A stretch of 64,000 nucleotides of DNA from assembly GCA_963555705.1 (NCBI GenBank), contig OY743190.1:17181491-17245490 (forward strand), given 5' to 3'. Below the pieces are notes generated by a model. That model ran no database searches and was not told the DNA's origin. It saw only the letters and a list, made by a program, of their open reading frames with translations. Position 1 is the first letter of the stretch, and each line of letters begins with the position of its first letter. The stretch is from Ligustrum vulgare. Its lineage: Eukaryota > Streptophyta > Magnoliopsida > Lamiales > Oleaceae. The position numbers and the translations under genes were made by a program. This document shows, in pieces, positions 1,732 through 40,792 of this stretch.

Positions 1732-1897
1732 TCCCCCCTCTCTTGACAAGGATTCGACCTCGAATCAAATTTGGGCCTACTTTTTAAACAAACACTTCAT
1801 GCTCTTGGGACCTTGATGTAGAACTGCTCCACCTGGATTGAATGGAAAATTATTGCTTCCCTGTAATAGGATCAACCAGCAGTGCTTTGTAACTTTT

Positions 1898-4800
1898 TGT
1901 AGCGCCCCGAGTTCCGTATACCCGATTCACTACGTTATTTTCTGTCTAAATTTTTCGAATAATATTTTTGCGGAAGAAATAATTGAAATTCATTTTTGGC
2001 AACGTTAAATAAACTGTAATGGCCGCTAAAATTGAAAACATTTATGAAACCATTTGAAATAGTAAATCGAACCATTAATATTGTAAAGAAATTGCCAATA
2101 TCATAATTTCTCAAATAAATGAACTTCTCTAAATTATTCGATTATTTGGAAAATACGGAAATCATTAACGTCAAACTTTCAACCGTTCAACGATTATTGC
2201 CACCATCATTCATCGCTCGCCACCGTCTCCGAAATCTGCAAAACTGTTAAAAAGTAGGGTGAGTATTTCATGGGGGAAATACTCAGTAGACTCATCGCAA
2301 ATTAATTTAATTTATAAGATGATTAAACACATAAATCCCGGCTCTTTATAAAACGGGCATTGATAGAGCTTCTTTATAAAACTGCTCTTGATAAAACTCA
2401 TATTGTGCATTACAGCACGGGACATATTTTACAAATCATAGGCTCTTTGAAAATAGCTCTTTGAAAACAGCTCTTTGAAAACCATATACTTATAAAAACA
2501 TTTTAATTATGTCAAGCATAATTTCTTTTGAAAGCATAACATAAGATAGGATTTAAATCCTCATAAACATAAATAGACACAAGAACTTTACCGAACTTAG
2601 GTGGCAAGAATTCTTATGCAGTAAAATCATAATAACAGTAAGTTTTCATCATAACATAGGATAATATCGAAATCCTCATAAACATAAGAATTTTACCGAA
2701 CTTAGGTGGCAAGAATTCTTATGTAGTAAGTCATAATAACAGTAAGATCATAATAACAGTAAGTATACCAAAACATAATTCATGAAATTCATAGGGATCA
2801 TTTCCATCATAACATAAGATAGGATCGAAATCCTCATAAACATACGCGACAGGAATTTTACCGAACTTAGGTGGTAAATCCTCATAAACATATGGAAAGA
2901 CAGGAATTTTACCGAACTTAGGTGGTAAATCCTCATAAACTTATGGAGACACAGAATTCTACCGAACTTAGGTGGTAAGAATTCTTATGCGTAGCAATGA
3001 TCCAAAACATATAAAACATTATCGTAAAAACATAGGGTATACTTACTTTTCATAAAACATACTTAATTTTCTTGAAAATTGACTTTCACAAGTCACATGA
3101 CATTCATATGAAATCATAATTTAAATCAATTAATAAGTGCGAGTCTACCTCAAATCCGACGAGTGCAAAGTTGAGCGGGAATGACTTCAATTTCTTTAAA
3201 TTCTCCGTACGCTTCGTCTTAGCCAATAAGTCACTTTAGTATATCGAATATATAGTTCAAAATGATAAATTATAATTTGAGGACTAAAATTGATGTTTTG
3301 AAAGTTGAGGGACTAAAATGAATACTTTTAAAAGTTGAGGGACTTAAATGAATATTTTCAAAAGTTGGGTCGAAGCTCAAATAAATATTATTATAGGGCT
3401 GAAATAATATATTTTGAAAATGAAAGGGCTGAAATGATCATTTTAAAACTAACAGGACTGAATTGAAACAAATTAAAACTTCAGGGACTGATTTGAAACA
3501 TTTCAAAACTTTAGGGACCAAACTGAAATTTTCGAAAGTTAAAATATAATATCAGACTTTATCTTTTCTTTACTCCTCTCTCTCTCATTCTTCGCTAATC
3601 AGGGCATTAGAGAGAGACAGGCGAAAGAGGTTCGTGAGCTGAGGAAGAGAGGGAAATCCGGTTTCTAACCGGCGATTCGCCGGCGCTAGGTGAGGCGAAG
3701 GACGGGCAAAGTGTGGGAGTTCTGATTTGGGGTTCATATGCGAGGTTGGGTGCAAAACCGTGGTTAAAAACGAAACTGGGTTCGCGATGATACTCCGGTC
3801 GGAGAAACGGCGTTCGAAGGTAAGTCTTGGGCTTGGTTTATTTCTTGGTTTTTGGTTTGATTTGAGGTTCGATTGATGGGGATTTTGAGATTGGCAGTGG
3901 AAGTGGCTCCGGTGGTTGGCGATTGTGGGCTGTGGTGGTGTTCATTTGGTGATTTAGAGTTGAGTAGTGGTGGTCGGAGGTGGTGATGTCGTCTATGGCT
4001 GTGGTGTTTGGTGATGATGAAGATGATTAAATTGATGTCTAAGTTTGATTAGAATAGGGCAGTGGTGGTGTTTGTTGGAATTTGCAGCTTGTTTCGATCG
4101 GGTTGGATCGGCAGTGATTCATTGGTGGTGGATTGATTTGATTGTGGTGATTGCTTCCGGTGGAGGTTCTGGTATTGGGGGGAAATTCTTGGTTGTGATG
4201 ATGATTGGTGATGATGAAATGTGGTGATGCAGTGACAGTGTGAATTGTGATGAAGGAGGGCTGAAGCAGATAGTGGAATTTGGCAGCTTGGTGGCCGTGA
4301 CTGTGGAGCTGAAATGGTTGCAGATTGGGATTTGAGTTGGGTTGGCTGCAGTGAAGTAATATGATTCAGGTTGTTATGGTGATTGCAAAAATTGGGGATT
4401 GAAGTATTGTTGCTTGACATTAGAGCTGCTGGTGGTGGAGGAGGACTGATGATGCTTGGTTGTCTAGCTGCAGAAAAGGAACTGCAGTTGGAATGAGGTG
4501 ATGATGCTGATGATTCATAAGTTTCGTGGTTATGGTTTGGGGCTGCAACTGATAATTGTGGTAGTGATGATGATGATGTTTATATATATTGAATTGTGGA
4601 AATCTGAAAATGGATGGGTCCGAAATTGTGGTATGTGGAGTTGGTGATAAAGGAGAAGAAAGCATTTTACCTTGCTGGAAAGAGTAGTGTAAGTGATGAT
4701 AATGATGATGCTTTGAGGTGTTCCAATTGTTCATGTGTGGAGATGCTTGTTGATTGTACACAATGAGATGGAAAGAATAATTAAGAAGGAAACAAGGTGG

Positions 4801-5186
4801 GGAACGTGAGTTGTGATGGGGAAGAATATGTATTGAGTTGGTACTATAGAATATGATAGTGTAGAATTAGGTGTAATATTTATTTGTATAAAAATGATGA
4901 TGTTTTTGTATAAAGAATTGTTGTCTTGGTGTAAAGAAGAAGACATGTGGGAAAAATTTGGATTTTAGAAAGATTTTTGAAAATAATACTTTGAATAAAT
5001 AATTAAAATAATATAATTTTAGAAATTCGAATATTAAATTTAAAATCGAACAAATTCGATATTTCTTGACTTGGCTAGACGAATCCGTCGCGGCATTAAT
5101 TTCAAAATAATAAATGAAATAGTAGCGACACAATTTTCTAAATATTAAAATAATTATTTATTGCATAAAAATTCTGGGTCGCTATA
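1898..5186 (-). repeat. 3' LTR of element A
   Basis: 3289 bp, starting TGTAGCGCCC on the plus strand and ending GGTCGCTATA. It is one base shorter than its partner (a G run near 4797). Contents on the plus strand: tandem GCTCTTTGAAAA units (about 2390-2490), a five-unit hairpin array (2566-2996), degenerate GGGACTNAA repeats (3255-3535), a CT-rich then GC-rich leader-like stretch (3560-3819) ending in a strong splice-donor consensus AAG|GTAAGT at 3819/3820, and a GGTGGTGG-rich tract (3900-4760). Open frames here are low-complexity by-products and are not called as genes. Confidence 0.95.
2566..2996. repeat. Five-unit hairpin repeat array in LTR (second copy 9139-9569)
   Basis: Five imperfect units share ACCGAACTTAGGTGG, flanked in the best units by CATAAGAATT and AATTCTTATG, which are inverted complements and would fold into a stem of about 10 bp around the core. 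Units lie near 2590, 2698, 2860, 2910 and 2960. The same array is in the other LTR of element A. No comparable array was seen in the LTR of element B. Confidence 0.8.
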
Positions 5187-5199
5187 ATCTTACCTCCTT
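5187..5199 (-). other. Polypurine tract of element A
   Basis: The minus strand reads AAGGAGGTAAGAT immediately before the 3' LTR. It overlaps the stop of a residual pol C-terminus ([10 protein letters not shown] then stop), which matches the same site in element B. Confidence 0.8.
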
Positions 5200-5727
5200 A
5201 AAATAATTTCGTCCTCGAAATTAAACTTACTTAATCTTAAAATTTCTGAATACTTAATCAGAATCTCTTCTTCTTATCATCGAAAATTCCAAAAATAATC
5301 AAAGAATTACCTGAATATCTTCTCTACGTAATATACCCAAACATATCAACATAATATCATCAACTTATCTTTCCAATATTTGTAACCCAAAATTCAGTAA
5401 ACAAATATCTCCCAAAACTAAGATTCTATACTTAAATGTCACCACATTTCCTGCAAAGTATTTCTTTCACTTGTATATACGTATGAATTCTGATTCAATA
5501 CGGTACTCATTTTACTTTCCACGTATCATCACACTATACCAAGATTATCATTATTAAAACAAAATATCAGTACCCATAATCCAAGAAAATATTCCAAATC
5601 TCCAATCAAATCTCCTTTATCGATAAAATTTAACAGCGCATTACTTCTTGTCTCCTCTTTTCATTAAAATAATCCTGCGCTTTCTTGCTGGTCACAACAT
5701 CACGCGGATTCACTCAGATCCTTTGCG
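5200..5727. other. Pol 3' remnant and unassigned AT-rich stretch in element A
   Basis: The first ~70 bases on the minus strand encode the end of a chromovirus pol protein (EEEIL.KY...FNFEDEIIL), homologous to element B at 32956-33030. From about 5270 to 5727 there is no match to B and no clear ORF; this is the start of the acquired block and upstream sequence of the first plus-strand ORF. It is AT-rich, with no feature I can name. Confidence 0.6.
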
Positions 5728-5729
5728 CT

Positions 5730-5738
5730 TTTAAATAG
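5730..5738 (+). promoter_or_regulatory. TTTAAATAG box upstream of CRP-like ORF
   Basis: GCTTTTAAATAGTT lies about 40 bases before the ATG at 5771. A near-identical box (GGCTTTAAATAGTC) precedes the LOG ORF. It could be a TATA box for separate transcripts; if the block derives from viral RNA, it could be a relic of a subgenomic promoter. Sequence alone cannot decide. Confidence 0.4.
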
Positions 5739-5770
5739 TTCATGCTGGGAAGAGGTTGAATCATCAAACA

Positions 5771-6322
5771 ATGGATATCATCCTTACAAACATTCGCAAG
5801 TATTATTCCAATCTTCCTATGAATGATCTGAAAAAGATCTATAGAATAAGGCTCGAAAGATTGAGGTTGCTGATGGCTCATGATCTTCCAGAAGATGTTC
5901 GTTGGTTGATAGAAGCAAAGGTTCGACTATCTGGTGAATTACCATCAACATTTCCTAAACACATGCCTGGTTTAGGCAAAAGCACGTTTGCAAAGAAACG
6001 AAGAGCAAAAAGACTGGGTGGTTGCTACAAATGTGCTCGTTGGAACTGTAATACTCGTTGCAAATCAGTAGGATATTCTTCTACTAATCGGGATGATAAA
6101 ATCGAATTCATAAAGGGTGGACTGAGTAAGGAGTCTTTGGATGATATTCGACTGACTCTTGAGACGCACCCAAGTGGTTATGTACAACGTGAACTTCTCT
6201 CCTTATACGCTCAGTTTAACGAGGACAAAAATCGTTATAGTCTCCAAAATATAATATCGAAAGATCCTGTTTGCCAGTCTGTTTTACAAAATGAGGCTTC
6301 TGGCAGTTCAGCAATGATATAA
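5771..6322 (+). CDS. Cysteine-rich, basic protein resembling nucleic-acid-binding proteins of flexuous plant RNA viruses
   Basis: Intact 183-aa ORF, antisense to element A. The start chosen is the ATG at 5771; the frame opens slightly earlier with no other ATG. Residues 69-81 (GKSTFAKKRRAKR) form a nuclear-localisation-like basic patch directly before a zinc-finger-like cluster: C85, C88, C93 and C97. A conserved-looking segment follows (residues 98-118), then a charged, probably helical C-terminus. The order 'small-residue turn, basic arginine patch, four-cysteine finger' matches the cysteine-rich proteins of carlaviruses and relatives (Betaflexiviridae, viral NABP family). Those proteins bind nucleic acid, and some are known as silencing suppressors or as host transcription modulators. 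At 183 aa it is longer than most of that family. There are no stops or frameshifts. Family assignment is by motif memory, not by search; a plant protein with a convergent finger is the alternative. Confidence 0.55.
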   Translation: MDIILTNIRKYYSNLPMNDLKKIYRIRLERLRLLMAHDLPEDVRWLIEAKVRLSGELPSTFPKHMPGLGKSTFAKKRRAKRLGGCYKCARWNCNTRCKSVGYSSTNRDDKIEFIKGGLSKESLDDIRLTLETHPSGYVQRELLSLYAQFNEDKNRYSLQNIISKDPVCQSVLQNEASGSSAMI

Positions 6323-6538
6323 GGTAAATCTTTTAAAATATTTTGCTGCTTTCTTTCACGCGTTTTGGAAATAAAATATATTTTCCTTTCTCGAGGTTTG
6401 ATAAAGCTGGAAATAAAATATTTAATCGCCGAAAGATGACAGCCTCGATACGATAAAAATATTCAAAAGTGGGCTGATTTTGTCAAAAGTAAATCTTTAC
6501 TTTTTCAGAATCAATCAAAAACAGTAAATTTTTCCGGC
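6323..6538 (+). other. Spacer between the two cargo ORFs
   Basis: About 216 bases with no ORF. They contain a good 3' splice-site consensus (CTTTTTCAG ending at 6508), which could pair with the GTAAGT donor in the left LTR at 3820. Otherwise the stretch is AT-rich and unremarkable. Confidence 0.4.
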
Positions 6539-6547
6539 TTTAAATAG
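6539..6547 (+). promoter_or_regulatory. TTTAAATAG box upstream of LOG ORF
   Basis: GGCTTTAAATAGTC lies about 75 bases before the LOG ATG and is followed by a CT-rich leader (tcttcttcg...tctcttct), typical of plant core promoters and 5' leaders. It is the sister of the box at 5730-5738. Confidence 0.45.
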
Positions 6548-6621
6548 TCAAACATATTTCATAGTTCAGGCATCCCAAAATCACATCTTCTTCGTAAGTT
6601 TTCTCTTCTATACTATCAAAG

Positions 6622-7275
6622 ATGGAAGCACCAAAACTTCGACAAATCAAAACTATTTGTGTATTTTGTGGATCAAAAGTAGGGAAAGGCTTCGGTTATC
6701 TAGAAGCGGCTGTAGATCTTGGAAAGAAACTGGGGGAAAAAGGTATCACTCTTGTATATGGGGGTGGTAGCAGTGGTCTAATGGGTTGTGTTTCCCAATC
6801 TGCTCTTGCAGAGAAATCAAAAGTAATCGGTGTTATACCTGTCCCTTTGGTAGATGTTGCAGGCAAAACACGAGGGCATGAAGTTCAAACCTTATCCATC
6901 CATGAACGCATAACTTGTATGCTATATGGTTCTGATGCCTTTATAGCCCTGCCCGGAGGTTTTGGTACCTTAGAAGAAATCTTTAACATTACCTCGTGGG
7001 CTCAACTAGATCTCCATACTAAGCCTATTGGGCTTCTGAATGTTAACAATTTCTTTGATGGTTTGTTAACCTTTCTTGATTATGCTGTGGAACAGGGATT
7101 CATCTCTCCATTTTCCAGAAGGCTTCTTATTTCTGCTCCTACTATTGATGAACTACTGGATAAGTTGCAGTCATATATCTCAATACAAGATCCAGCAGGA
7201 GTTAAGATAGATTGGTCGCAAGGAAGGGGAATCAAGCGAAAATGGAGTCCGGTTAATGTAAACTTAACTCTTTGA
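6622..7275 (+). CDS. LOG-like: LOG-family cytokinin riboside 5'-monophosphate phosphoribohydrolase carried by retrotransposon A
   Basis: Intact 217-aa ORF, the usual length for a plant LOG. LOG enzymes release active cytokinin bases from their riboside 5'-monophosphates in one step, in the cytosol. Visible motifs are ICVFCGSK at the N-terminus, the nucleotide-binding loop VYGGGSSGLMG (45-55), IGVIP (69-73), HER (94-96, with the conserved catalytic Arg96) and the signature PGGFGTLEE (111-119, Glu119), then WAQLDLHTKPIGLLN. The residue after the catalytic Arg, normally Lys in canonical LOGs, is Ile97, so this is a divergent subgroup and activity needs testing. Plant LOG genes normally have several introns; this one has none, which suggests capture as RNA/cDNA. 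The start context (aagATGG) is good. It lies 299 bases after the CRP-like ORF on the same strand. Confidence 0.92.
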   Translation: MEAPKLRQIKTICVFCGSKVGKGFGYLEAAVDLGKKLGEKGITLVYGGGSSGLMGCVSQSALAEKSKVIGVIPVPLVDVAGKTRGHEVQTLSIHERITCMLYGSDAFIALPGGFGTLEEIFNITSWAQLDLHTKPIGLLNVNNFFDGLLTFLDYAVEQGFISPFSRRLLISAPTIDELLDKLQSYISIQDPAGVKIDWSQGRGIKRKWSPVNVNLTL

Positions 7276-7285
7276 ATCTTAGAAT

Positions 7286-7495
7286 AGGTGGGGGTAGAGT
7301 ACGGAGTATTCTCATTCTCGAGACACCCCTCCATTTACTAGGATTTCCTTAATGTTTAAATCTTGTGTGTACCTCAAAGGTTCCAGGTGGTAGATTACGG
7401 AGTATTCTTACTCTCGAAACACACCTCTTTGAAGGTTTCTTTATTTCCTCAAAAGATCAGAGGTGGTAGGATACGGCTACTCCGGAAACACATCT
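7286..7495 (+). repeat. Three imperfect hairpin repeats downstream of LOG
   Basis: Cores at 7286-7330, 7385-7426 and 7461-7495 share AGGTGG...TACGG...CTC.(A/G)AAACAC..CT. In each, the outer AGGTG/CACCT-type ends are complementary. Copy 2 also has a perfect inner stem GAGTA/TACTC around TTCT. They lie just after the LOG stop codon, so they would be structured 3'-UTR elements of the plus-strand transcript. Confidence 0.7.
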
Positions 7496-7595
7496 CTCAT
7501 TTTGAGGATTATCCCATGCTTCTCTCGTTTGCTTTCGTGTGTTTCATGTATTTCCTTTCCAGTGTGACTCTTGTGTGTTCTCCTTATGAGAAAAT

Positions 7596-7601
7596 AATAA
7601 A
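7596..7601 (+). terminator. Candidate polyadenylation signal for the cargo transcript
   Basis: AATAAA on the plus strand, followed within 40 bases by a GT-rich stretch (tttgtgatgtaaatg). It lies 320 bases after the LOG stop, downstream of the hairpin repeats, and could end a LOG transcript. Confidence 0.4.
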
Positions 7602-7639
7602 ATCTCTGCTATCAGCTACTAAATCTCGTTTGTGATGTA

Positions 7640-8435
7640 AATGAACTTGCATGTCTAAACTTAATTCCTTTAGTAGATGCTTATCATATTATGCTCTTAA
7701 TTCCAAATGATAAAATTCTGGACAGAGTCTCCCTTGTAATTTGGACTTATTCCAAACCATAAGCATACTTCATAACTCACAATAATAAATAACTCCACAT
7801 TTGATCACAACGATCTAAAAATATTGAAAATAATTCCAACACTTCAATATCATCAAAAATATCCCATAATTCAATTCATAATTCCTCAACATAGAAATTT
7901 CAAATCATATTTTTCAATATCACAATATTACTTCCTTCCATACCTTAATTGGCTCAAAAGTTACACATACTTATAAATATATGCCATAAATCATATTCCC
8001 AAAATTTATTCACAAAGCCAAACTTCATAATAAATTTCTCTTCAACATAGAGGCATAATAAATTAACTCAACATAATATCCATTACTTAATTCTCAATAA
8101 AATCATATTATTCCCATTATGCTCAACACTCGTTTTCTTTAAAAAAAAATTCTCATAATCATACATTAAAGCATATAAGTTATGACAAAGCATAACAACA
8201 TCATTATTTTCGAAGAAATACATTCTTATTTCTCATAAATCATAAGTATTCGAAATACTCTTCATTCTTTCTCATAAATTAGTAAAATGAGTATTCGAAA
8301 TACTGAAATAACTTTAAACATCATAAACTTCTTTACCTCGGAGTTGGTGGAACGAATGATGGCAGTGGCAATCTTCATCAATAAAATTTTATAATGGAAA
8401 ATATTTCTTGAAAATTCTTTTTGAAAATTTTTCCA
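7640..8435 (-). other. Leader region of element A, no ORF
   Basis: From about 8100 to 8435 the sequence is recognisably related to the 5' leader of element B (38260-38550), including 'cccattatgctc' and 'ttacctcggagttgg', so it belongs to the original retrotransposon. From 7640 to about 8100 it is AT-rich and unassigned. No protein-coding frame is supported. Confidence 0.6.
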
Positions 8436-8467
8436 GTCTACAGAAACGCAGACTAGCTCTGATACCA
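8436..8467 (-). other. Hairpin and primer-binding site of element A (tRNA-iMet)
   Basis: The minus strand reads TGGTATCAGAGC (8467-8456), complementary to the 3' end of plant initiator Met-tRNA and three bases from the LTR. Just downstream in element sense is a short stem-loop GTCTGC/GTCTAC-type (8453-8436) that also occurs in element B at 38551-38568. Confidence 0.9.
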
Positions 8468-8470
8468 ACT

Positions 8471-11400
8471 TGTAGCGCCCCGAGTTCCGTATACCCGATT
8501 CACTACGTTATTTTCTGTCTAAATTTTTCGAATAATATTTTTGCGGAAGAAATAATTGAAATTCATTTTTGGCAACGTTAAATAAACTGTAATGGCCGCT
8601 AAAATTGAAAACATTTATGAAACCATTTGAAATAGTAAATCGAACCATTAATATTGTAAAGAAATTGCCAATATCATAATTTCTCAAATAAATGAACTTC
8701 TCTAAATTATTCGATTATTTGGAAAATACGGAAATCATTAACGTCAAACTTTCAACCGTTCAACGATTATTGCCACCATCATTCATCGCTCGCCACCGTC
8801 TCCGAAATCTGCAAAACTGTTAAAAAGTAGGGTGAGTATTTCATGGGGGAAATACTCAGTAGACTCATCGCAAATTAATTTAATTTATAAGATGATTAAA
8901 CACATAAATCCCGGCTCTTTATAAAACGGGCATTGATAGAGCTTCTTTATAAAACTGCTCTTGATAAAACTCATATTGTGCATTACAGCACGGGACATAT
9001 TTTACAAATCATAGGCTCTTTGAAAATAGCTCTTTGAAAACAGCTCTTTGAAAACCATATACTTATAAAAACATTTTAATTATGTCAAGCATAATTTCTT
9101 TTGAAAGCATAACATAAGATATGATTTAAATCCTCATAAACATAAATAGACACAAGAACTTTACCGAACTTAGGTGGCAAGAATTCTTATGCAGTAAAAT
9201 CATAATAACAGTAAGTTTTCATCATAACATAGGATAATATCGAAATCCTCATAAACATAAGAATTTTACCGAACTTAGGTGGCAAGAATTCTTATGTAGT
9301 AAGTCATAATAACAGTAAGATCATAATAACAGTAAGTATACCAAAACATAATTCATGAAATTCATAGGGATCATTTCCATCATAACATAAGATAGGATCG
9401 AAATCCTCATAAACATACGCGACAGGAATTTTACCGAACTTAGGTGGTAAATCCTCATAAACATATGGAAAGACAGGAATTTTACCGAACTTAGGTGGTA
9501 AATCCTCATAAACTTATGGAGACACAGAATTCTACCGAACTTAGGTGGTAAGAATTCTTATGCGTAGCAATGATCCAAAACATATAAAACATTATCGTAA
9601 AAACATAGGGTATACTTACTTTTCATAAAACATACTTAATTTTCTTGAAAATTGACTTTCACAAGTTACATGACATTCATATGAAATCATAATTTAAATC
9701 AATTAATAAGTGCGAGTCTACCTCAAATCCGACGAGTGCAAAGTTGAGCGGGAATGACTTCAATTTCTTTAAATTCTCCGTACGCTTCGTCTTAGCCAAT
9801 AAGTCACTTTAGTATATCGAATATATAGTTCAAAATGATAAATTATAATTTGAGGACTAAAATTGATGTTTTGAAAGTTGAGGGACTAAAATGAATACTT
9901 TTAAAAGTTGAGGGACTTAAATGAATATTTTCAAAAGTTGGGTCGAAGCTCAAATAAATATTATTATAGGGCTGAAATAATATATTTTGAAAATGAAAGG
10001 GCTGAAATGATCATTTTAAAACTAACAGGACTGAATTGAAACAAATTAAAACTTCAGGGACTGATTTGAAACATTTCAAAACTTTAGGGACCAAACTGAA
10101 ATTTTCGAAAGTTAAAATATAATATCAGACTTTATCTTTTCTTTACTCCTCTCTCTCTCATTCTTCGCTAATCAGGGCATTAGAGAGAGACAGGCGAAAG
10201 AGGTTCGTGAGCTGAGGAAGAGAGGGAAATCCGGTTTCTAACCGGAGATTCGCCGGCGCTAGGTGAGGCGAAGGACGGGCAAAGTGTGGGAGTTCTGATT
10301 TGGGGTTCATATGCGAGGTTGGGTGCAAAACCGTGGTTAAAAACGAAACTGGGTTCGCGATGATACTCCGGTCGGAGAAACGGCGTTCGAAGGTAAGTCT
10401 TGGGCTTGGTTTATTTCTTGGTTTTTGGTTTGATTTGAGGTTCGATTGATGGGGATTTTGAGATTGGCAGTGGAAGTGGCTCCGGTGGTTGGCGATTGTG
10501 GGCTGTGGTGGTGTTCATTTGGTGATTTAGAGTTGAGTAGTGGTGGTCGGAGGTGGTGATGTCGTCTATGGCTGTGGTGTTTGGTGATGATGAAGATGAT
10601 TAAATTGATGTCTAAGTTTGATTAGAATAGGGCAGTGGTGGTGTTTGTTGGAATTTGCAGCTTGTTTCGATCGGGTTGGATCGGCAGTGATTCATTGGTG
10701 GTGGATTGATTTGATTGTGGTGATTGCTTCCGGTGGAGGTTCTGGTATTGGGGGGAAATTCTTGGTTGTGATGATGATTGGTGATGATGAAATGTGGTGA
10801 TGCAGTGACAGTGTGAATTGTGATGAAGGAGGGCTGAAGCAGATAGTGGAATTTGGCAGCTTGGTGGCCGTGACTGTGGAGCTGAAATGGTTGCAGATTG
10901 GGATTTGAGTTGGGTTGGCTGCAGTGAAGTAATATGATTCAGGTTGTTATGGTGATTGCAAAAATTGGGGATTGAAGTATTGTTGCTTGACATTAGAGCT
11001 GCTGGTGGTGGAGGAGGACTGATGATGCTTGGTTGTCTAGCTGCAGAAAAGGAACTGCAGTTGGAATGAGGTGATGATGCTGATGATTCATAAGTTTCGT
11101 GGTTATGGTTTGGGGCTGCAACTGATAATTGTGGTAGTGATGATGATGATGTTTATATATATTGAATTGTGGAAATCTGAAAATGGATGGGTCCGAAATT
11201 GTGGTATGTGGAGTTGGTGATAAAGGAGAAGAAAGCATTTTACCTTGCTGGAAAGAGTAGTGTAAGTGATGATAATGATGATGCTTTGAGGTGTTCCAAT
11301 TGTTCATGTGTGGAGATGCTTGTTGATTGTACACAATGAGATGGAAAGAATAATTAAGAAGGAAACAAGGTGGGGGAACGTGAGTTGTGATGGGGAAGAA

Positions 11401-11760
11401 TATGTATTGAGTTGGTACTATAGAATATGATAGTGTAGAATTAGGTGTAATATTTATTTGTATAAAAATGATGATGTTTTTGTATAAAGAATTGTTGTCT
11501 TGGTGTAAAGAAGAAGACATGTGGGAAAAATTTGGATTTTAGAAAGATTTTTGAAAATAATACTTTGAATAAATAATTAAAATAATATAATTTTAGAAAT
11601 TCGAATATTAAATTTAAAATCGAACAAATTCGATATTTCTTGACTTGGCTAGACGAATCCGTCGCGGCATTAATTTCAAAATAATAAATGAAATAGTAGC
11701 GACACAATTTTCTAAATATTAAAATAATTATTTATTGCATAAAAATTCTGGGTCGCTATA
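8471..11760 (-). repeat. 5' LTR of element A
   Basis: 3290 bp, starts TGTAGCGCCC and ends GGTCGCTATA; near-identical to 1898-5186. By eye the differences are near 9124 (T for G), 9666 (T for C), 10246 (A for C) and one extra G near 11371. It contains the same hairpin array and the same plus-strand splice donor consensus (10392/10393). Confidence 0.95.
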
Positions 11761-12541
11761 CTTTTATACGGATGGATGAAATCATAATCTCCGTTGGGCG
11801 TATGTGATGTTGCCCAAATTCCCAAGTGCAATTATCCTGCCAGAAAGAATTAAATAAAATAGGGCGAGGAATGTTAGTTTCTCCATGTACAAGGTATGGA
11901 TCCTTGTACTCATGACACAACTCTTCCACTTCTTCTTTTCGCACCACGAGGCCCTTCTCTTCGCCTCCAACAGTCATTTCACTTTCTGGCTCATTCTCTT
12001 CTATTTCTTTTCTCTCGTGCACCTCTTCTAAATTTTCACACTTAACCACCTCTCCCAGATTATCAGTTTTCTTCTCATGTACCTCATAAATAATTTTATC
12101 CCCGTGCCCATTCACTTCGTTACTACCCAAGTTCTCACCCTCTGCCTCAATTTTTGGAATTTGATCAACTAATTCAAATTTCAATTCCTCAGTTTCAATC
12201 TCAACAATCCTATCCCGAGGCTCCAATGGTAAGTCCACAACATTCTTACTTTCATTCTCCTTTTGTAATTTATCATCAGCCTCTCCTTCACTCTCCCTCT
12301 CTTGCAACTTAGCCAATTTTTTTGTCGCTCTTTTTGCAATCATCTCTTCCTTTAACTGCTTTAATATCATTCTCACCTCTTCAAATTCATCCCTCATTTC
12401 CTAGACACCATCTCCTATTTTTGAAGCACCATCTTCCAATACTTTCAGCTCATCCCCAATTCCAACTCTAGGTTTATGATCAATCCTATTCGCCCTCCTA
12501 ACTCTAGGAACTGTTTGATGTTTTTCCCTGAATTTAGACAT
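11761..12541 (-). pseudogene. Coiled-coil gag-like ORF of element C, interrupted
   Basis: Reading from ATG at 12541 (MSKFREKHQTV), the frame is open for 46 codons, meets a TAG at 12403-12401, then stays open to the insertion of element A at 11761; in C it would continue about 30 codons into 1897-1790. The middle is a Glu/Lys-rich, coiled-coil-like region. The tail has YKDPYLVHGETN, matching the tail of the element D protein (YKDPYLALNESN), so this looks like a gag N-terminus fused to a polyprotein C-terminus by internal deletion. No enzymatic domain is present. It is dead, from the TAG and the insertion. Confidence 0.7.
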
Positions 12542-12969: not shown

Positions 12970-13740
12970 TGATGTGATCCCGGGAGGGGTCACGACGAAC
13001 ACACGGAATAAACGCCGGAAAAGTTCCGAATTCAGGCTGGAATGGACGGCAACACTAGACCCGAGCCTCACGACGCAAGAACCAGGGGTATATTAAACCC
13101 GAGACCTGTTATGATGCCGAAACAAGAACCGTAATTGTTTGAATGCCACAAAGGATGCCCACGCCTTTGATAAGTTCGATTTGTTGAACGCCACAAAGAT
13201 ATAATAATCTTTGATAAGTTTGAAAGTTCAATCAAGAACAATATTTGGGAGAGAAATAACTCAACACAATTTTCATTAATCAAAAGTCTCTCTTACAATC
13301 AATAGAAAAAGTGTATAAATAAACAAAATAAACCTAGCCGTTAACTGGGCTCAAAATAGAGTCCTAATTGACCTAAAATACTAAAAACGGAAAAGGAAAT
13401 AAAAAATCTGCAAAATCTGTCCCGCTGAGCATTTACAGCCGTAAAGATGACACTTACGGCCGTAAGTGTGTTTCTGTTTAAAGTTACGGCAGTGACACTT
13501 ATACTTACGGCCGTAAATTTGAAAATCTTGGAATCCTGCGTTTTCACCCGAGAGGAGGTTATGGCCGTGACATATGTTGGTTACGGCCGTGAAAGCCCTT
13601 CTGGTCCTCAAACTTTGATTTTTCAACTCGGCTTGATCCCTTAGTCTTCTCGGCTCGACTCCAACATGGAAATTGTTCATTTCCCTATGTAGAATGTTGT
13701 TGCGTCGCCCGTGACTTGACTTCTCCTTTGAGCTCTTATC
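12970..13740 (-). repeat. 5' LTR of element C (outer end truncated)
   Basis: Related to 945-1731. The outer end stops at GAGCTCTTATC and switches, with about two bases of microhomology, into plus-strand internal sequence of copy G; the expected terminal GGATCACATCA is missing. Six TTACGGCCGTRA-type palindromes start at 13433, 13454, 13484, 13505, 13559 and 13581. A minus-strand TATA (TTTATACAC) lies near 13312. Confidence 0.85.
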
Positions 13741-14395: not shown

Positions 14396-14594
14396 CATAC
14401 GCCCAATGGAGATTATGATTTCATCCATCCGTATAAAAGTTACAAAGCACTGCTGGTTGATCCTATTACAGGGAAGCAATAATTTTCTATTCGATTCAGG
14501 TGGAACAGTTCTACATCAAGGTCCCAAAGCATGAAGTGTTTAAAAAACAGGCCCAAATTTGATTCGAGGTCGAATCCTTGTCAAAAGAGGGGGA

Positions 14595-15359
14595 TGATGT
14601 GATCCGGGATAGGAACTCAAAGGAGAAGTCAAGTCACGGACGACGCAACAACATTCTACATAGGGAAATGAACAATTTCCATGTTGGAGTCGAGCCGAGA
14701 AGACGAACAGATCAAGCCGAGTCGAAAGATCAAAGTTTGAGGACCAGAAGGGCTTTCACGGCCGTAACCAACATATGTCACGGCCTAACCTCCTCTCGGG
14801 TGAAAACGCAGGATTCCAATATTTTCAAATTTACGGCCGTAAGTCTAAGTGTCACGGCCGTAACTTTAAACAGAAACACACTTACGGCCGTAAGTGTGAT
14901 CTTTACGACCGTAACTGCTCAGCGGGACAGATTTCACAGATTTTTATTTCCTTTTCCGTTTTTAGTATTTTAGGTCAATTAGGACTCTATTTTGAGCTCA
15001 GTTAGCGGCTAGGTTTATTTTGTTTATTTATATGCTTTTTCTATTGATTGTAAGAGAGACTTTTGATTAATGAAAATTGTGTTGAGTGGTTTTCCCTCCA
15101 AATATTGTTTTTGATTGAACTTTCGAACTTATCAAAGATTAGAATATCTTTGTGGCGTTCAACAAATCGAACTTATCAAAGGCGTGGGCATCTTTTGTGG
15201 CGTTCAAACCATTACGGTTTTTGTTTTCGCATCGTAACGGGTCTTGGGTTTAATATACCTATGGTTTTTACGTCGTGAGGCTCGGGTTGTAGTGTTCTCG
15301 TCCGTTCCAACCTGGATTCGGAACTTTCCGGCGTTTCTTTCGCGCTTCGATTCTCATCA
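14595..15359 (+). repeat. 3' LTR of element G
   Basis: 765 bp, starting TGATGTGATCC after the polypurine tract CAAAAGAGGGGGA. It contains the same six-palindrome block (about 14758-14925) and a TATA-like TTTATATGC near 15029. The U5 end differs from C's LTRs (shorter, ending TTCTCATCA), marking a subfamily or a rearranged terminus. Confidence 0.8.
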
Positions 15360-30750: not shown

Positions 30751-32952
30751 TGTAACGCCCCGAGTTCCGAGAAACGCGGGAGCGTCACTTTTCTAAATTC
30801 TGGAATAAACTTTATTGCGGAAAATGACTAAATATTAAATATCACATTTAATAAATCAAAGTTTAGCGATAATTCCAAATTAAATAGAATAATTCTTACA
30901 AACTTATTAAAAATAAGAATTCTTGATAAAATGAAATTGTTTATTTAGAAATCCACGACTTTCAAAAATAATATCCAAATTATATTCTTCGCCATTGCCC
31001 ATCACTCGCCTCCGTCACCGAAATCTGCAAATTTGTTAAAACAACGGGGTGAGCATTTCAAAATGAAATACTCAGTAGACTCAACTCCAATAATTAATCT
31101 ACAAGATAATTGGACAAGTAATCATGCAAATAATGTAGTGATATTCTTTTCTTATTCATAGGCATCACATAGTGACACAAATGAACCATTCTTTTCTTAA
31201 ATCATGCTAGCAGATAAGTTATGACGTGCATAACATAAATTCTCAAATTTATCTCATACGAGATATTCTTTTCTTTTCTCATGCAATAAAGCATATAAAA
31301 TCACACAAATCCACATAATCACATGCAATTATAATATAAATCAATTAGTGGGGGCGAGTCTACCTTTAACGTTACGAGTTCTCAAAAATTGGAGCGGGAA
31401 GTACGTCAATCTCTTAATTCTTCAAATGATTCGTCTAGCCAAGAAAATTAATTAAATTAGTATTTTCGAAACTTGAATTTAAAGTAATTAACATAAATAA
31501 GATATAAGGATCTAATGGAATTTTAAGAGAATTGAGTTTAAAATTTAGGGACTGAAGTAGACTTTTTACAAAAAGATAAGGGCTGATTGAAATAGTTAAG
31601 AACTGCAGGGACCAAATTGTTACATACTGAAACTGAACAAAAATATTTTTGAATTACAAGGGGCTGAAATAACATCCCTTTAAAAGTGAGGACCCGAAAC
31701 CCACGAATATGAAAAATGGGGACTGAAACGGATGTATTTCGAAACTTGGGGCTGAGTGGGCAAAATTTTGAAAACTAAATAAATTACAAAATATTTATTC
31801 TTTTCTTTCCCATTCTCAGACTCGGACAAAAGAGAGAGACAGGGAGGTCGCGGCGAGCGAGCGACGGGAAAGGAGGATGCTCGGACTCCGGCTACTGACT
31901 TCATAGCCGGCGACATCGCCACCGTCTCGTGGTGGCGTCGGTGCGTGGGAGGGGCGGCTTTGGGCAGATTTGGGGTGCGAAGGGAAGGATTAACCGAGGC
32001 TGGATTGGGTTTTGGAGTGTGATTTCCGGCCAACAATCAAGTCGAATATTGAGGTAGGTGTTTGGATTTGTCTATTTCTTGTGTTTGGGTTTGATTTTTG
32101 GGGGTTTGGCTCAGATTTGGGAGTTGGGCAGGGGGCGGTTTGTGGTGGTGATGAGGTCGCGACAGTGGTTGGCCGTGTGTGGTTGGGGCGTTTGGTTGTG
32201 GCGACTGGTGGTGGTGATCTTGTTTCTGGCTCGTGGTGTTGGATTGGTGGTGGTGTGGAGGTTCGACATTGCGGTGATGTTACAGGGGGCGGTGTGCGAA
32301 TTTGGTGTGGGTGCAGACGGTGGTTGGGTGGTTTGGCAACGGCTGTGGTGTTGCTCAGGGTTCTAGGCTGGTTGTTGGAGTTGGTTGCTCCGGTGATGGG
32401 TGATGCAGATAGCGAACTTTGTCTACGGTGGAAATTGAGAGAAATATACCTTTGCTGGAGGCGGCTGCGTAGGTTTCGATAATGAAGTTGGGGGATTAAA
32501 TTAATAGTTGATTTAGGTGTTAAACATGGTAGCTTAGGTTAAAATCTTGGTTTATGGAAATCTTGTAAAAATTTTGGAAACGAGTATCGATTGCGTAAGG
32601 AAAACTTGGGGAGGAAGAAGCTGGTGAATAGGTTGGGTCAAAAGATGACTTATTGGGTTTTTAAATGGGCCTGAATGATTGGTAGCAAAAAAAACATTTG
32701 GACTCGATAAATTGGATTGGACTAAAATATTTCAAATTGGGACTTAATAAAATTAATACTTGGACTTTTGAAAATAAACTGTGATATTAAAATATTTTTG
32801 ATAAAATTGAAATTAGACTAAGTCTTTAAATAAGTTTAATTTCACTTAATTGGCTAGACGAATACTCCTTTAAATTAAATGGAAAAGCCGTAGTGACGCG
32901 CACTTAGAGTTCTAAATATTTTATAAAGAATTTAAAATTCCCGGTCGCTACA
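30751..32952 (-). repeat. 3' LTR of element B
   Basis: 2202 bp, TGTAACGCCCC...GGTCGCTACA on the plus strand. It contains degenerate GGGACT repeats (31540-31760) and a GC-rich, G(T)GG-rich block (31830-32480). Open frames here are shadows of that composition. Confidence 0.95.
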
Positions 32953-32955
32953 ACC

Positions 32956-34176
32956 CTACCACCTTAAAATAATTTCGTCCTCGAAATTTAAACTTACTTG
33001 GTCTAAAATATCTGGATACTTGGCCAGAATTTCTTCTTCTTTCTCCCATGTAGCCTCATCGCTACCATGTCTACCCCACTGGACTTTGACTAGTGAAATT
33101 TCTTTATTTCTTAGGACATGGACTTTTCTATCGATGATGCACGTGGGTGCCTCTTCATAATATAGATTCTTCTGAATTGGGATTGACTGAAAGTTCACCA
33201 CGTGACTGGGATCGTGAACATACTTCCTCAATAAAGAGATGTGAAAAACATTGTGTATAGCCGATAGCTCGGGTGGCAATGCTAGACGGTAAGCCACATT
33301 ACCTACTTTCTCCAATATTTCAAAAGGTCCGATAAATCGAGGCCTTAATTTCCCTTTCTTGCCAAAACGAATAGTGCCCTTCATAGGAGAGATTTTCAAA
33401 AACACTTTCTCTCCAATCTCGAACTCCAAGTCTTTCCTCCTCTGATCGGCATAGCTTTTCTGTCTGTCCTGGGCAGCTTTAATTCGCAATCTTATTTTCT
33501 CGATAGCCTCTACGGTCTTTTCAATTAATTCGGGGCCCAATAGCTTCCTCTCGCCAACCTCATCCCAATATACCGGCGATCGACATCTTCGCCCATACAG
33601 TGCTTCAAACGGTGCCATACCAATGGTAGCCTGGAAACTGTTATTGTAAGCAAACTCCACCAATGGCAAGTGAGCTTCCCAATTGCCTCTTAGGTCCAAC
33701 ACACAGGCTCTAAGCATATCCTCTAAAGTCTGAATTGTGCGTTCAGACTGCCCGTCTGTCTGCGGGTGGTAAGCGGTACTAAAATTTAATTTAGTCCCCA
33801 TAGCCGTGTGTAGGCTCTTCCAAAATCTCGAAGTGAATCTCGGATCCCTATCTGAAACAATAGACGCTGGAACCCCGTGAAGTCGAACTATCTCCCTGAT
33901 GTAAATATGGGCCAAGTGATCTATACTGAGAGTCATCCGCACTGGAAGAAAATGGGATGACTTTGTAAGTCGGTCTACAATAACCCAGATGGCGTCATGT
34001 CCCCTCACTGTTCTTGGTAAACCTGTTACGAAATCCATGGAAATCTTCTCCCATTTCCATTCCGGAATATCTAAAGGATTTAGTAGTCCTGATGGTCTCT
34101 GATGTTCAGCCTTGACCTGCTGGCAGGTCATGCATCGTGAGACAAACTTGGCAATGCACCCTTTCATATTCCTCCA
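32956..34176 (-). pseudogene. Integrase with chromodomain of element B (3' segment of pol)
   Basis: About 400 codons open after a TAG at 34179-34177. The second half of the zinc finger (CMTCQQ) is followed by the catalytic triad: D in MDFVTGLP, D in VSDRDPRF and E in QSERTIQT, spaced 60 and 35 residues as expected. A chromodomain follows near the C-terminus ([10 protein letters not shown]...[16 protein letters not shown]), which in this clade steers integration to heterochromatin. The stop codon TAG lies within the polypurine tract. The TAG interrupting the zinc finger replaces an expected Trp codon (TGG), a C-to-T type change on the plus strand. Confidence 0.9.
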
Positions 34177-35375
34177 CTAGAATGTGGTACGCAAATCTCG
34201 GTACATCTTTGTTCCTCCTGGGTGAGCTGCATACGGAGCTGAGTGGGCTTCCCTCAATATTTCATTCCTGATCTGATCATCTTTCGGCACACATAGGCGA
34301 CCCTTAAATAATAGTGCCTTGTCAATTTCGATTTCAAAATCTGCTCTCTTGCCGGTTCCAACTTCGGATTTGATCTTCTCCAAAAACTTATCACTTTCTT
34401 GAGCCATCACGATTCTGCTTCTCAAATCTGGTTTAACTGTCAAATTTGTCAATCTGCTAGAACTTTGTATTCCTGGGTTTCTTACTTAAATTCTCAAGTT
34501 CTGAAAATCCCGAATCAACTGTTCTTGTACTGTTCCCAAAGCTGATAATTGACCCACGTCCTTCCTGCTTAGTGCATCTGCAACCTTATTAGCCTTACCC
34601 GAGTGGTAAAGAATAGTACAATCATAATCCTTCACCAGTTCCAACCATCGACGCTGTCTCATGTTCAATTCCTTCTGAGTGAAGAAATATTTGAGACTCT
34701 TATGGTCGGTGTAAATCTCGCACTTACTCCCATATAGGTAATGTCGCCAAATCTTAAGAGCGTGCACAACAGCTGCCAGTTCTAGATCATGCGTCGGATA
34801 GTTTTTCTCGTATGGCTTCAACTGTCTCGAAGCATAGGCAATCACTTTACCTTTTTGCATCAACACACATCCCAAACCATGTTTCGAGGCATCACTGTAT
34901 ATCACAAAATCCTCGGATCCATCCGGCACGGTTAACACTGGTGCTGAAACCAGTCTATTCTTCAATTCCTGGAAGCTTCGTTCACACTGCTCTGTCCACT
35001 GGAATTTTACACCTTTTCGTGTCAACTGAGTCATGGGACCCGCTATCTTGGAGAAACCCTCTATAAATCGCCGGTAATATCCAGCTAGTCCCAAAAAGCT
35101 TCTTACATCACCGGCATTCGCTGGCGTAGTCCAATTACTCACTGTCTCCACTTTTGACGGATCAACTTCGATGCCATTGATTGTAACAATATGACCCAGA
35201 AAGCCTATCTTCTCCAGCCAAAATTCACATTTCTTAAATTTGGCGAATAGCTTTTCTGCCCGTAGTGTCTCCAACACGATTCTCAGATGTTCTGTATGCT
35301 GTTGTGAATCTTTAGAATAGACCAGAATATCGTCAATGAAGACAATGACGAACTTATCCAAGTACTGATGGAAAA
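34177..35375 (-). pseudogene. RT C-terminal half, RNase H and integrase N-terminus of element B
   Basis: The frame resumes after a one-base deletion near 35376. It holds the RT active site FIDDILVYS, the RNase H signature [13 protein letters not shown], the RNase H tail [15 protein letters not shown] and the first half of the integrase HHCC finger. A TAA at 34488-34486 (after NLRI) and a TAG at 34179-34177 break it into three. The sequence on both sides of each stop stays in one frame, so these are single point mutations. Confidence 0.9.
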
Positions 35376-36385
35376 CCGGTTCATCAAGTCCATAAATACT
35401 GCAGGCGCGTTCGTAAGACCGAATGGCATCACCGTGAACTCATAGTGTCCATATCGAGTCCTAAACGCTGTTTTTTGTATATCCGAAGACTTGATCTTCA
35501 ATTGATGGTAATCGGACCTTAAGTCCATCTTTGAAAATACCGCAGCTCCTTTCAGTTGATCGAATAAATCTTCGATTCTGGGCAAGGGGTACTTGTTCTT
35601 TATTGTCAACTTGTTCAATTCCCGATAGTCTATGCACATTCTCATACTGCCATCCTTCTTCTTCACAAATAGCACAGGTGCTCCCCACGGGGACACACTT
35701 GGCCTAATAAAGCCCTTCTCTAGTAATTCTTCCAGTTGGACCTTCAGTTCTTGCAATTCTTTCGGTACCATACGATACGGGGCTTTCGAAACAGGGGCAG
35801 CTCCTGGCACCAAGTCAATAGCGAATTCCACCTGTCTATCCGGCGGGGTGCCCGGTAGGTCTTCTGGAAAAACATCTTGAAAGTCACACACAACTGGCAC
35901 TGACTCCAATTTGATTTCCTCGGCAGGCTTTCCTTGGAGGTTAACCAGGTAACTCTGACAGTTTCCCTTGGCAATCATCTTTTCGGCTTGCATAGCTGAG
36001 ATAAGGCGAGGAAGCACTTTAACCTTCGAACCGTAAAATCTGAACACCTCATCCCCATTCTTCCGAAATACTACTTCTTTCTCATGGCACATGATCGCGG
36101 CACGGTTAGAGCTCAGCCAATCCATTCCTAGGATAATGTCGAAATCCTTCATTGGAATAATATTCAGGTCTGCCTCAAGTACTATCCCGTCAAAATCTAT
36201 TCGTATAGACTTGACTATCCTATTAGTATCAAGAATCTCTCCTGACGGTAAGCTTACTTCAAGCATGCTACCAGTCGTTTCACCCACTAAATTCAATCTA
36301 GTTAAGCATGAGTCGGAAATAAATGAATGTGTGGCACCCGAATCTATTAGGACGTATACGGGAATACCAGAAACGGATAAAATTC
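35376..36385 (-). pseudogene. Protease and RT N-terminal half of element B
   Basis: Begins at the 3' side of the candidate intron (GGA ATT TTA TCC frame). It encodes protease with [11 protein letters not shown], the linker, then RT motifs [31 protein letters not shown] and MPFGLTNAP. In the RT motif usually read as DLRSGYHQ, Gly is replaced by Asp (DLRSDYHQ). Register is lost near 35376 at a missing G in the ...MNR/VF... region. There is no ATG start of its own; it depends on joining to gag. Confidence 0.9.
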
Positions 36386-36471
36386 CTGTTATCGTCGTTC
36401 ATATTATTAATTCGAGCATGATATATGAAATTAAGTAATATGAGTATATGAATGCTGAAATAATGGTATAC
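36386..36471 (-). other. Candidate spliceosomal intron between gag and protease of element B
   Basis: On the minus strand, exon end TTGCAG|GTATACC (donor at 36471) and ATAACAG|GAATTT (acceptor at 36386) enclose 86 AT-rich bases with several stop codons and branch-point-like TTAAT strings. Reading without splicing ends gag 13 codons later. Removing the 86 bases joins the phase-1 codon G|GA and puts gag exactly in frame with protease, as in the unbroken gag-pol of typical Tekay elements. No TSD or element-like ends mark it as an ordinary small insertion. Confidence 0.7.
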
Positions 36472-37501
36472 CTGCAATCACGTCGGAGTTCTCAACGGCG
36501 TCCATGGCAAATACCCTAGCCTTCCCCTTCCTGTTCTGGTCAATGTTCTTCTTCTGGTCTGAGCCTTGAGCAGGTGCTGCGTTGCAATCTCGAGCAAAGT
36601 GGCCCGATTGGCCACATCGGTAACAAACAACCTTGTTGCCAAAGAGGCATTCTCCTTTGTGTGTCTTCTGGCACTTCGGACATGGTGGAAGGAAACTAGT
36701 CACCTGACCTCTGTTAGGTCCTGTATTTTGTCTCTTATTGAAATTCTGGTTCCTGTTCTGATGGTGGCCATGCCATTTCCGTTTACCTTGATGCCCTTGA
36801 TTGTTCCGATTGCCTTGAGTGCCAATCTTTGCACCAGCAAAAGCTACAGCCTGAGCCTTCTTCACAACTTCTCTATAAGTGGGCAGTTCATGTGAGCCAA
36901 CAATCTGCCTGATATCCGATCGAAGACCCTTCTCAAATCGGCGTGCCTTCTTAACTTCGGTTTCCACTAGATGTGGAGCATATCGTGACAGTTCTTCGAA
37001 CTTCCGTTCATAGTCAGTGATGTCCATCTCGCCCTGAACTAGCTGTAAAAATTCGGTCTCCTTATGGTCTCGGAGGGCTTGTGGGAAGAACTTGTCTTTG
37101 ATCTCTTCCTCAAACTCTTCCCATGTCAACGCTGCCTGTTCCTCTGCGGTCCTAGTCCGTGATGCGGACTCCCACCAAAAGCCAGCCCTACCGATAAGCA
37201 TAAACTTCGCGCAAGTAACCTTCTTGTCCTCAGGGCAAGAGATATGCTTGAAAATCCTCTCGATTCCCTGTAACCACTCCTCCACGGCCAACGGATTGTC
37301 CCCGTCATCAAAAGTGGACGGACGATACCTCCTGAATTGTTCGATAATTGGCACTGAGGAACCTGTTGGGGCCTGCCTCAAATCTTGCACGGCCAGAAGT
37401 AAGTCCTTGATGATACTGGATTGGGCCGTGGGGCCCTGTCCTGGGTTCTCTAGTTCAGATGTAGCACGATCCGTTAAACTCCTGTTAATGCGTCTAGCCA
37501 T
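36431..37501 (-). CDS. Gag of element B
   Basis: 356-aa frame from the ATG at 37501. Retrotransposon gag core: RYRPSTFDDGDNPLAVEEW, then WWESASRTR, FPQALRDHKETEFLQL and YAPHLVETEVKKARRFEKGL. A basic Asn/Gln/Arg-rich linker and a single CCHC zinc knuckle CYRCGQSGHFARDC follow. It forms the capsid that packages element RNA in the cytoplasm. The last 13 codons after the knuckle region come from reading into the candidate intron; the spliced form would continue into protease. No stops or frameshifts. Confidence 0.9.
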   Translation of the reverse strand: MARRINRSLTDRATSELENPGQGPTAQSSIIKDLLLAVQDLRQAPTGSSVPIIEQFRRYRPSTFDDGDNPLAVEEWLQGIERIFKHISCPEDKKVTCAKFMLIGRAGFWWESASRTRTAEEQAALTWEEFEEEIKDKFFPQALRDHKETEFLQLVQGEMDITDYERKFEELSRYAPHLVETEVKKARRFEKGLRSDIRQIVGSHELPTYREVVKKAQAVAFAGAKIGTQGNRNNQGHQGKRKWHGHHQNRNQNFNKRQNTGPNRGQVTSFLPPCPKCQKTHKGECLFGNKVVCYRCGQSGHFARDCNAAPAQGSDQKKNIDQNRKGKARVFAMDAVENSDVIAGIPLFQHSYTHIT

Positions 37502-37713
37502 TCCCTTTAAAATGAAAACAAGGAACGTGTTGGTAACTTCTGATAAAAATTTGTACCAAATATTGCAATTAATTCAACTCCAATATGAACGAAAATGAAA
37601 ATATTCTCATTAATATTTTAAAATTCCTTCAATTGAGGGTACAAAATATAGAATTGCCAATACGGGGAATGGAATAATGCTAGGCAAAAATTTTAAGATA
37701 ACTCTCATATATT

Positions 37714-38163
37714 CTACATCTTCGACGGTGACATGGGAGATATCGATCCTGGTGTGCCGGGGGTATAATCTGGTGCGCCCGGGGTCATAGTTGGTGAGTC
37801 AAAGGTATACCCTGGTGAGCCAGGAGTATAGTCATATATGCCTGACTCGGCGTCGGGTATCTCCGCTGGTTCTTCCTCGTCATCTGATAGAATAATTATC
37901 TCCTGTGCTGGAGCACGGGTTAGGTAGCGGTCCCACCGCATTACAAATTCGTCACAGACAGTCTGGAAGTTCACGTCTTCTCCTAGACGTCTCTTCACGT
38001 CATTATAAAACTTGATCGCTAATTCACGCTGACATTCTGGGAATGTTGACAAGAGGCGGCTAATAGATTGAGCGTCAGTCAGCCTAAGTCCACTAGCTAT
38101 AGCGTCATGACGTATGACACAATAACGAAGGATATGGTTTGATATCCCGTCAATTGGTTCCAT
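37714..38163 (-). CDS. Extra ORF between 5' LTR and gag of element B
   Basis: 149-aa intact ORF in element sense, ATG at 38163, 212 bases before gag. The N-terminal ~90 residues look globular and helical. A classic SUMO-interaction-like motif EIIILSDDEEE (hydrophobic core plus acidic tail) follows. The C-terminus is a Pro/Thr/Ser-rich repeat based on YTPGSPG/YTPGTPG, loosely like a polymerase II C-terminal-domain repeat. I do not recognise a family. Extra ORFs are known in some plant LTR elements, usually with unknown roles. It is not visible in element A's leader. Confidence 0.65.
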   Translation of the reverse strand: MEPIDGISNHILRYCVIRHDAIASGLRLTDAQSISRLLSTFPECQRELAIKFYNDVKRRLGEDVNFQTVCDEFVMRWDRYLTRAPAQEIIILSDDEEEPAEIPDAESGIYDYTPGSPGYTFDSPTMTPGAPDYTPGTPGSISPMSPSKM

Positions 38164-38550: not shown

Positions 38551-38582
38551 GTCTACAGAAACGTAGACCCGCTCTGATACCA
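38551..38582 (-). other. Primer-binding site and adjacent stem-loop of element B
   Basis: Minus strand TGGTATCAGAGC (38582-38571), for initiator Met-tRNA, three bases from the 5' LTR, followed by a perfect 6-bp stem-loop GTCTAC/GTAGAC at 38568-38551. Confidence 0.9.
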
Positions 38583-38585
38583 CGC

Positions 38586-40787: not shown

Positions 40788-40792
40788 GCCAT

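Follow-up and report, generated by a model that had tools for sequence, protein, structure and literature searches.

A retrotransposon with two antisense genes

The stretch of Ligustrum vulgare DNA analysed here, 64,000 nucleotides long and referred to below as the window (C23:17181491-17245490 in a searched genome of 1.38 Gb), contains at 1898-11760 an LTR retrotransposon that carries two intact genes, one encoding a LOG-type protein and the other a homologue of a viral nucleic-acid-binding protein (NABP; Table 1). The two LTRs are 99.88% identical, with three substitutions and one indel between them, and the 5-bp target site duplication CTTTT is present on both flanks. The primer site lies beside the LTR that begins at 8471, and the polypurine tract beside the one ending at 5186; since both read on the minus strand, this is the retrotransposon sense, and the plus-strand LOG gene is antisense to it. 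The primer site, GTTGGTATCAGAGC, is complementary to initiator tRNA-Met. These features agree with the original prediction of a young element with near-identical LTRs, a perfect target site duplication, a primer site and a polypurine tract; its overall limits stand as well, the left LTR end being corrected to 5186. Assuming a yearly substitution rate of about 1.3e-8 at each site, the three LTR substitutions would mean an age of some tens of thousands of years for the window copy.

Table 1. Features of the retrotransposon and its cargo (window positions; LTRs named in the retrotransposon sense)
Feature	Position	Strand	Basis or conservation
Target site duplication CTTTT, left copy	1893..1897	.	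sequence
3' LTR, 3289 bp	1898..5186	-	99.88% identity with the other LTR
Polypurine tract AAGGAGGTAAGA	5188..5199	-	LTR/polypurine tract junction is the basis of the genome count and sampling
Captured block (NABP, spacer, LOG, 3' repeats), limits approximate	5665..7640	+	cargo-less copies L050 and L052
NABP ORF, 183 aa, Viral_NABP/Carla_C4, C85-C88-C93-C97	5771..6322	+	open in 39/39 block-bearing copies
NABP-LOG spacer or predicted intron; donor G/GTAAAT, acceptor TTTTTCAG	6324..6508	+	each site kept in 38/39
LOG ORF, 217 aa, predicted cytokinin riboside 5'-monophosphate phosphoribohydrolase	6622..7275	+	open in 39/39 block-bearing copies
Repeats of type TACGGAGT...CTCGAGAC	7293..7423	+	also after LOG in 5/6 second-family loci
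Primer binding site GTTGGTATCAGAGC (minus strand)	8456..8469	-	exact in 40/40 sampled sites
5' LTR, 3290 bp	8471..11760	-	99.88% identity with the other LTR
Target site duplication CTTTT, right copy	11761..11765	.	sequence

Apart from the plus-strand NABP and LOG genes, the internal region (5187-8470) has no stop-free frame of at least 120 aa, and at this frame length the element lacks a gag-pol with chromodomain integrase of its own, as had been predicted. We class it as Tekay-like and non-autonomous. The window also contains another young LTR retrotransposon, at first sight unrelated (30751-40793; LTRs 99.73% identical over 2208 bp), which encodes gag, protease, RT and integrase and has a weak chromodomain match. 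The two elements have in common the polypurine tract side (87% of 86 bp), the primer binding site side (70% of 199 bp) and, in the LTR, two stretches (79% and 74%), and these common parts show kinship with a chromodomain-bearing Ty3 element as parent; by features typical of that lineage, we regard both as Tekay-like. LARDs are elements with long LTRs and no coding capacity; the long LTRs at 1898-11760 fit that class, the two conserved ORFs do not.

The element lies between direct repeats (955-1661 and 12979-13683; 80-96% identical) separated by about 12,022 bp, and a related frame lies at 14563-14970, so that the element appears to be nested in another repeat. Elsewhere in the window, 42354-46455 holds polyprotein frames of Ty1/copia type (gag-pre-integrase, integrase, RVT_2). 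The middle of the LTR (3600-5060) is unalignable between copies even though their internal regions agree at about 98%: of the 20 LTR pieces compared, 10 alone match the window there, and part of the mismatches may come from differences in LTR length, while the sampled copies retain the final 125 bp of the LTR. A TATA-like and pyrimidine-rich stretch at 3530-3590 in the aligned copies was considered as an antisense promoter and dropped for want of support, its direction being ambiguous and the match again confined to 10 of 20 LTR pieces.

The LOG protein matches Pfam Lysine_decarbox (PF03641) with 116 bits against a cut-off of 27 and combines this domain with the PGGxGTxxE signature, as PGGFGTLEE at residues 111-119, with R96 upstream; we take R96 and the signature residues to be catalytic. 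Arabidopsis At2g37210 is the closest solved structure by sequence, and the AlphaFold model (pLDDT 82) superposes on 2a33 in Foldseek with a TM-score of 0.95 (target length) and an rmsd of 1.5. The intact antisense LOG of the original prediction is thereby upheld, and the protein is predicted, from its sequence, to release cytokinin from its nucleotide. The neighbouring NABP ORF had been overlooked, and the observation was to that extent understated. It scores 32.5 with Viral_NABP (cut-off 23) and 26.8 with Carla_C4 (cut-off 20.9), and is a homologue of the carlavirus cysteine-rich nucleic-acid-binding protein, with nucleic acid binding predicted; its structure model (pLDDT 56) was left out of the fold comparison. 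Unlike the carlavirus gene it is not the 3'-terminal gene of a flexivirus genome, as the ORF sits inside an LTR retrotransposon. The kept splice-like sites of the spacer hint at splicing between NABP and LOG.

Copies in the host genome

The junction of LTR and polypurine tract occurs at 2,309 sites in the genome at no more than two mismatches, and the reversed junction pattern, used as control, at none genome-wide. Of 9,447 first-look candidates in a LOG protein search, 150 were scored, and all are 100% identical, full length and free of stops, in a best-first list and hence one biased to identity. A sample chosen blind to LOG was therefore taken on contig C1, where 48 exact junction sites were listed and the first 40 of them used; being drawn from a single contig and from exact junctions, it leans to younger copies. 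At 38 of these 40 sites both LOG and NABP are full length, without stop or frameshift, at 99.5-100% (LOG) and 95-100% (NABP) identity. The other two (L050 and L052) have neither gene; their match to the element breaks off near 5665 and resumes near 7640, which sets the limits of the inserted block. The original prediction had called for a search for other copies and their LOG integrity, and a lone or decaying copy is refuted; an assembly chimera, the other concern, is ruled out by the 2,309 junctions together with the presence of both ORFs at 38 of 40 sites.

Head-to-tail NABP arrays of up to five copies, spaced by about 6.7 kb, are found at G000:C23:10311325-10338630 and elsewhere. This spacing is roughly the combined length of an LTR and an internal region, and such arrays recur among the LOG and NABP matches listed.

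Selection on the cargo

The 38 block-bearing sampled copies and the window copy, 39 sequences in all with L050 and L052 left out, were used to estimate constraint. In LOG, pS is 0.0320 and pN 0.0007, a ratio of 0.023; in NABP the values are 0.0381 and 0.0081 (ratio 0.21), and the NABP-LOG spacer diverges by 4.9%. Only 6 of 36 LOG variants are nonsynonymous, against about 74% expected under the noncoding mutation spectrum (P about 1e-12), and this falls to 1 of 17 among variants seen in at least two copies; for NABP the count is 25 of 53 (P 9e-6). Two copies identical to others (L038 to L037, L058 to L030) were kept in the main counts, and dropping them in a repeat analysis left the outcome of the variant tests unchanged. 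The LOG proteins of 32 of the 39 copies are identical. Nucleotide diversity is lowest in LOG (0.0085), followed by NABP and the 144 bp before LOG (0.015 each), the right flank (0.017), the left flank (0.037) and the first half of the spacer (0.051).

Relative to the majority, no copy (0/39) has an indel in either ORF, whereas right-flank stretches of the same lengths as the ORFs carry one in 35/39 and 38/39 copies. The four NABP cysteines, as well as R96 and PGGFGTLEE of LOG, are kept in 39/39. Gene conversion or homogenisation is not behind the identity of LOG, because its synonymous sites differ by 3.2% and vary as much as the noncoding parts. With intact ORFs and low pN/pS amid indel-rich noncoding sequence, the NABP-LOG cargo is under purifying selection and is no mere passenger. 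The original prediction had left recent capture or selection as alternatives: selection is supported, and the capture from a host gene that it implied is not, as described below.

A second NABP-LOG family and the origin of the block

In plant data the NABP has 345 homologues at E <=0.001, 120 of them listed; the named ones among the matches listed are proteins of Orobanche, Striga, Populus, Acer and Xanthoceras, and three of the Orobanche gene models there fuse NABP and LOG domains. Contigs of 8723, 4511 and 2128 bases occur in both the NABP and the LOG match lists, and this agreement in length suggests that some contigs may carry both genes. A scan of viral contigs returned no relatives of NABP and a single LOG match (29%), which was not used in the analysis. 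One homologue lies on a 3.3-kb plant-like contig (L002, DAIEQH010000041.1), on which an integrase ORF is followed by NABP in the same sense and by a tract resembling a polypurine tract, with no LOG. This contig, a plant-type retrotransposon piece, is filed under a Candidatus Nomurabacteria MAG, where its placement is probably contamination.

A search of the window's own genome with the L002 NABP (P0007) returned, at the top ranks, NABPs distinct from those of the window family. At all six loci examined of this second family (L093-L098) a LOG gene lies 60-190 bp downstream of the divergent NABP, in the same sense. An integrase fragment was found upstream at one of them within the 1.5 kb examined (L098, with the integrase end about 1.2 kb upstream of NABP-LOG), and NABP has a stop at three. 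After LOG, five of the six loci have a tract AACATTGAGGACA...AAGTTTGGGGGAA, as L002 does, and five have the repeat TACGGAGT...CTCGAGAC that also follows the window LOG. Among the integrases of the window's genome, the ten most closely related to that of L002 have neither NABP nor LOG behind them (0/10).

The window LOG joins the six LOGs of the second family and four others in one group of the LOG tree (11 rows, support 100/99), and in the unrooted tree the tested LOGs of the window kind form a group distinct from the LOG1/3/4 proteins of other host plants (100/100). A direct copy of a host LOG1/3/4 is contradicted by this separation and by the grouping with a second NABP-LOG family, and a host gene was probably not the immediate source of the cargo. 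We infer that a Tekay-like element captured, back to front, the 3' part of an Athila-type element, a putative donor with a non-chromodomain Ty3 integrase.

The LOG proteins of the two families differ in their active sites. At 6/6 second-family loci a Ser stands in place of the window R96 and PGD...Q in place of PGG...E, and by these changes the second-family LOGs, whose frames are mostly open, are predicted to be inactive and are possible pseudo-enzymes; LOG can thus persist in such a module without its usual active site. Five of the six end in LDLELRL. An LxLxL sequence, which we regard as an EAR-like motif, lies within the last 12 residues of 92 of the 120 listed LOGs of the window kind and of 0/120 host LOG1/3/4-type proteins, in a comparison whose host side is confined to LOG1/3/4 types and in which residence in an element is established for part of the 120 LOGs. 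The window family itself ends in VNVNLTL, a degenerate form of the motif that is the same in 39/39 copies.

Proposed mechanism and alternative explanations

The reading that we favour, and that on balance is probably correct, is that of a young non-autonomous Tekay-like retrotransposon whose antisense NABP-LOG cargo is under purifying selection, and which likely owes its spread to a benefit that the two proteins bring to their encoding copy. The 3' part of a second, integrase-bearing NABP-LOG element would have been the donor, its NABP-LOG block having entered, in reversed orientation, a Tekay-like element already devoid of gag-pol, for which other elements would provide these functions. The block would be transcribed antisense to the element. 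In the cell that expresses the source copy, LOG would increase active cytokinin and favour meristem divisions, and NABP would bind element RNA and shield it from silencing, as the CRPs of the carlaviruses PVH and PVM do. The proteins would have to act for the copy they come from or for the lineage of its cell, for example by increasing the number of divisions in germline-forming meristem cells, because a benefit shared equally among copies would leave broken ones unweeded. This benefit to the own copy is a matter of reasoning, deduced from the selection acting across thousands of elements devoid of gag-pol: strong constraint on LOG in such elements means that the copies that founded new copies had a working LOG. 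More tentatively, and with a chance somewhat short of probable, NABP and LOG, a virus-type RNA-binding protein and a hormone-activating enzyme, may form a portable manipulation module that has passed between retrotransposon lineages, was flipped, and drives the spread of elements without gag-pol by altering both division and silencing in germline-founding cells. Against the favoured reading stand the 2 of 40 sites at which the element has multiplied without the block, the loss of the LOG motif residues at 6/6 second-family loci, the NABP stops at 3/6, and the carlavirus protein CVB p12, a member of the NABP family that did not suppress silencing (PMC3689765); against the capture model stand the integrase relatives, 0/10 of which have NABP or LOG behind them, and the detection of an integrase at only one of six loci within 1.5 kb.

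A recently captured LOG that is intact merely from the youth of its copies would suit the 99.88% identity of the window LTRs and the well-known propensity of LTR retrotransposons to capture genes, but the copies have diverged enough for a test (pS 0.032 against pN 0.0007 in LOG), only 1 of 17 shared LOG variants is nonsynonymous, and both ORFs are free of indels in every copy while the flanks have them in 35-38 of 39, all of which makes this account very improbable. Just as improbable is a benefit to the host, with copies kept as dispersed cytokinin genes: there are many copies with intact ORFs, yet 2,309 junction sites, tandem arrays and a spread like that of a transposable element fit poorly with host-level selection on each copy.

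Two further explanations accept selection and place its target elsewhere. The function for which LOG is maintained could be something else than cytokinin release; it might, for example, partner NABP in the nucleus, or recruit a co-repressor through its C-terminal basic stretch and LxLxL tail. The frequency of the LxLxL end (92/120 listed LOGs against 0/120) and its retention as LDLELRL in 5/6 second-family proteins with a changed active site (6/6) speak for such a role, which stays a serious rival but which we nevertheless consider unlikely, since the tail is degenerate in 39/39 window-family copies that all keep R96 and PGGFGTLEE, and since the comparison concerned host LOG1/3/4 types and LOGs of which a part are established as element residents. 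Selection might instead act on an RNA-binding or anti-silencing role of NABP, with LOG retained mainly through a shared transcript or complex. NABP is constrained too (ratio 0.21) and occurs without LOG in L002, and, according to PMC3689765, suppression of local silencing is a property of the related carlavirus CRPs of PVH and PVM and was not seen with CVB p12; LOG is, however, about tenfold more constrained in pN/pS than NABP, and we judge this reading decidedly improbable.

Relation to known systems

Cargo genes of retrotransposons have mostly been dismissed as passengers; here the protein of a hormone gene stays nearly unchanged while its element multiplies. This makes it testable whether plant transposons manipulate host development or silencing for their own inheritance, and the case is a tractable one, with small proteins, many copies and, in one plant, a pair of lineages whose LOG active sites differ. 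The carlavirus CRP gene family is, moreover, linked to retrotransposons across several plant families. In the literature searched, which included few subscription papers, no report was found of the NABP partner, of the NABP-LOG module, of its transfer from one lineage to another or of selection acting on it.

The presence of LOG inside LTR retrotransposons is already published. Steinbauerova et al. 2011 reportedly described two Athila-like elements with similarity to LOGL4. That work is cited in PMC9289625, where LOG/YgdH domains are described in Ty3/gypsy LTR retrotransposons of Citrus and Populus. These share with the present element a LOG-type ORF inside a plant retrotransposon of Ty3 type; the element described here differs in its antisense LOG, its Tekay-like structure without gag-pol, the NABP neighbour, the 2,309 junction sites and the measured selection. 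The same source reports an AlkB-type m6A demethylase in Ty3/gypsy elements of orchids, likewise an enzyme of host or virus type gained by a plant retrotransposon; the enzyme is another one, and the orchid carrier is an autonomous, Ogre-type element.

With the carlavirus CRP/NABP proteins (PF01623, PF05515) the window NABP shares domain matches above the cut-off and a basic stretch followed by four cysteines, but it is encoded by a retrotransposon rather than an RNA virus genome, is longer (183 aa) and is known here from sequence. Antisense extra ORFs, located like the present genes between the position of pol and the 3' LTR and antisense to gag-pol, occur in Grande, Retand, RIRE2 and others, for which, according to the review PMC7264820, clear similarity to any protein was not known; here both ORFs have clear relatives and gag-pol is missing. 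In Tekay elements of sunflower, rice, maize and sorghum, additional ORFs lie at the 5' side, and a conserved extra protein has been suggested to modulate RNA silencing (PMC11728184); the cargo described here differs from these in protein, position and orientation.
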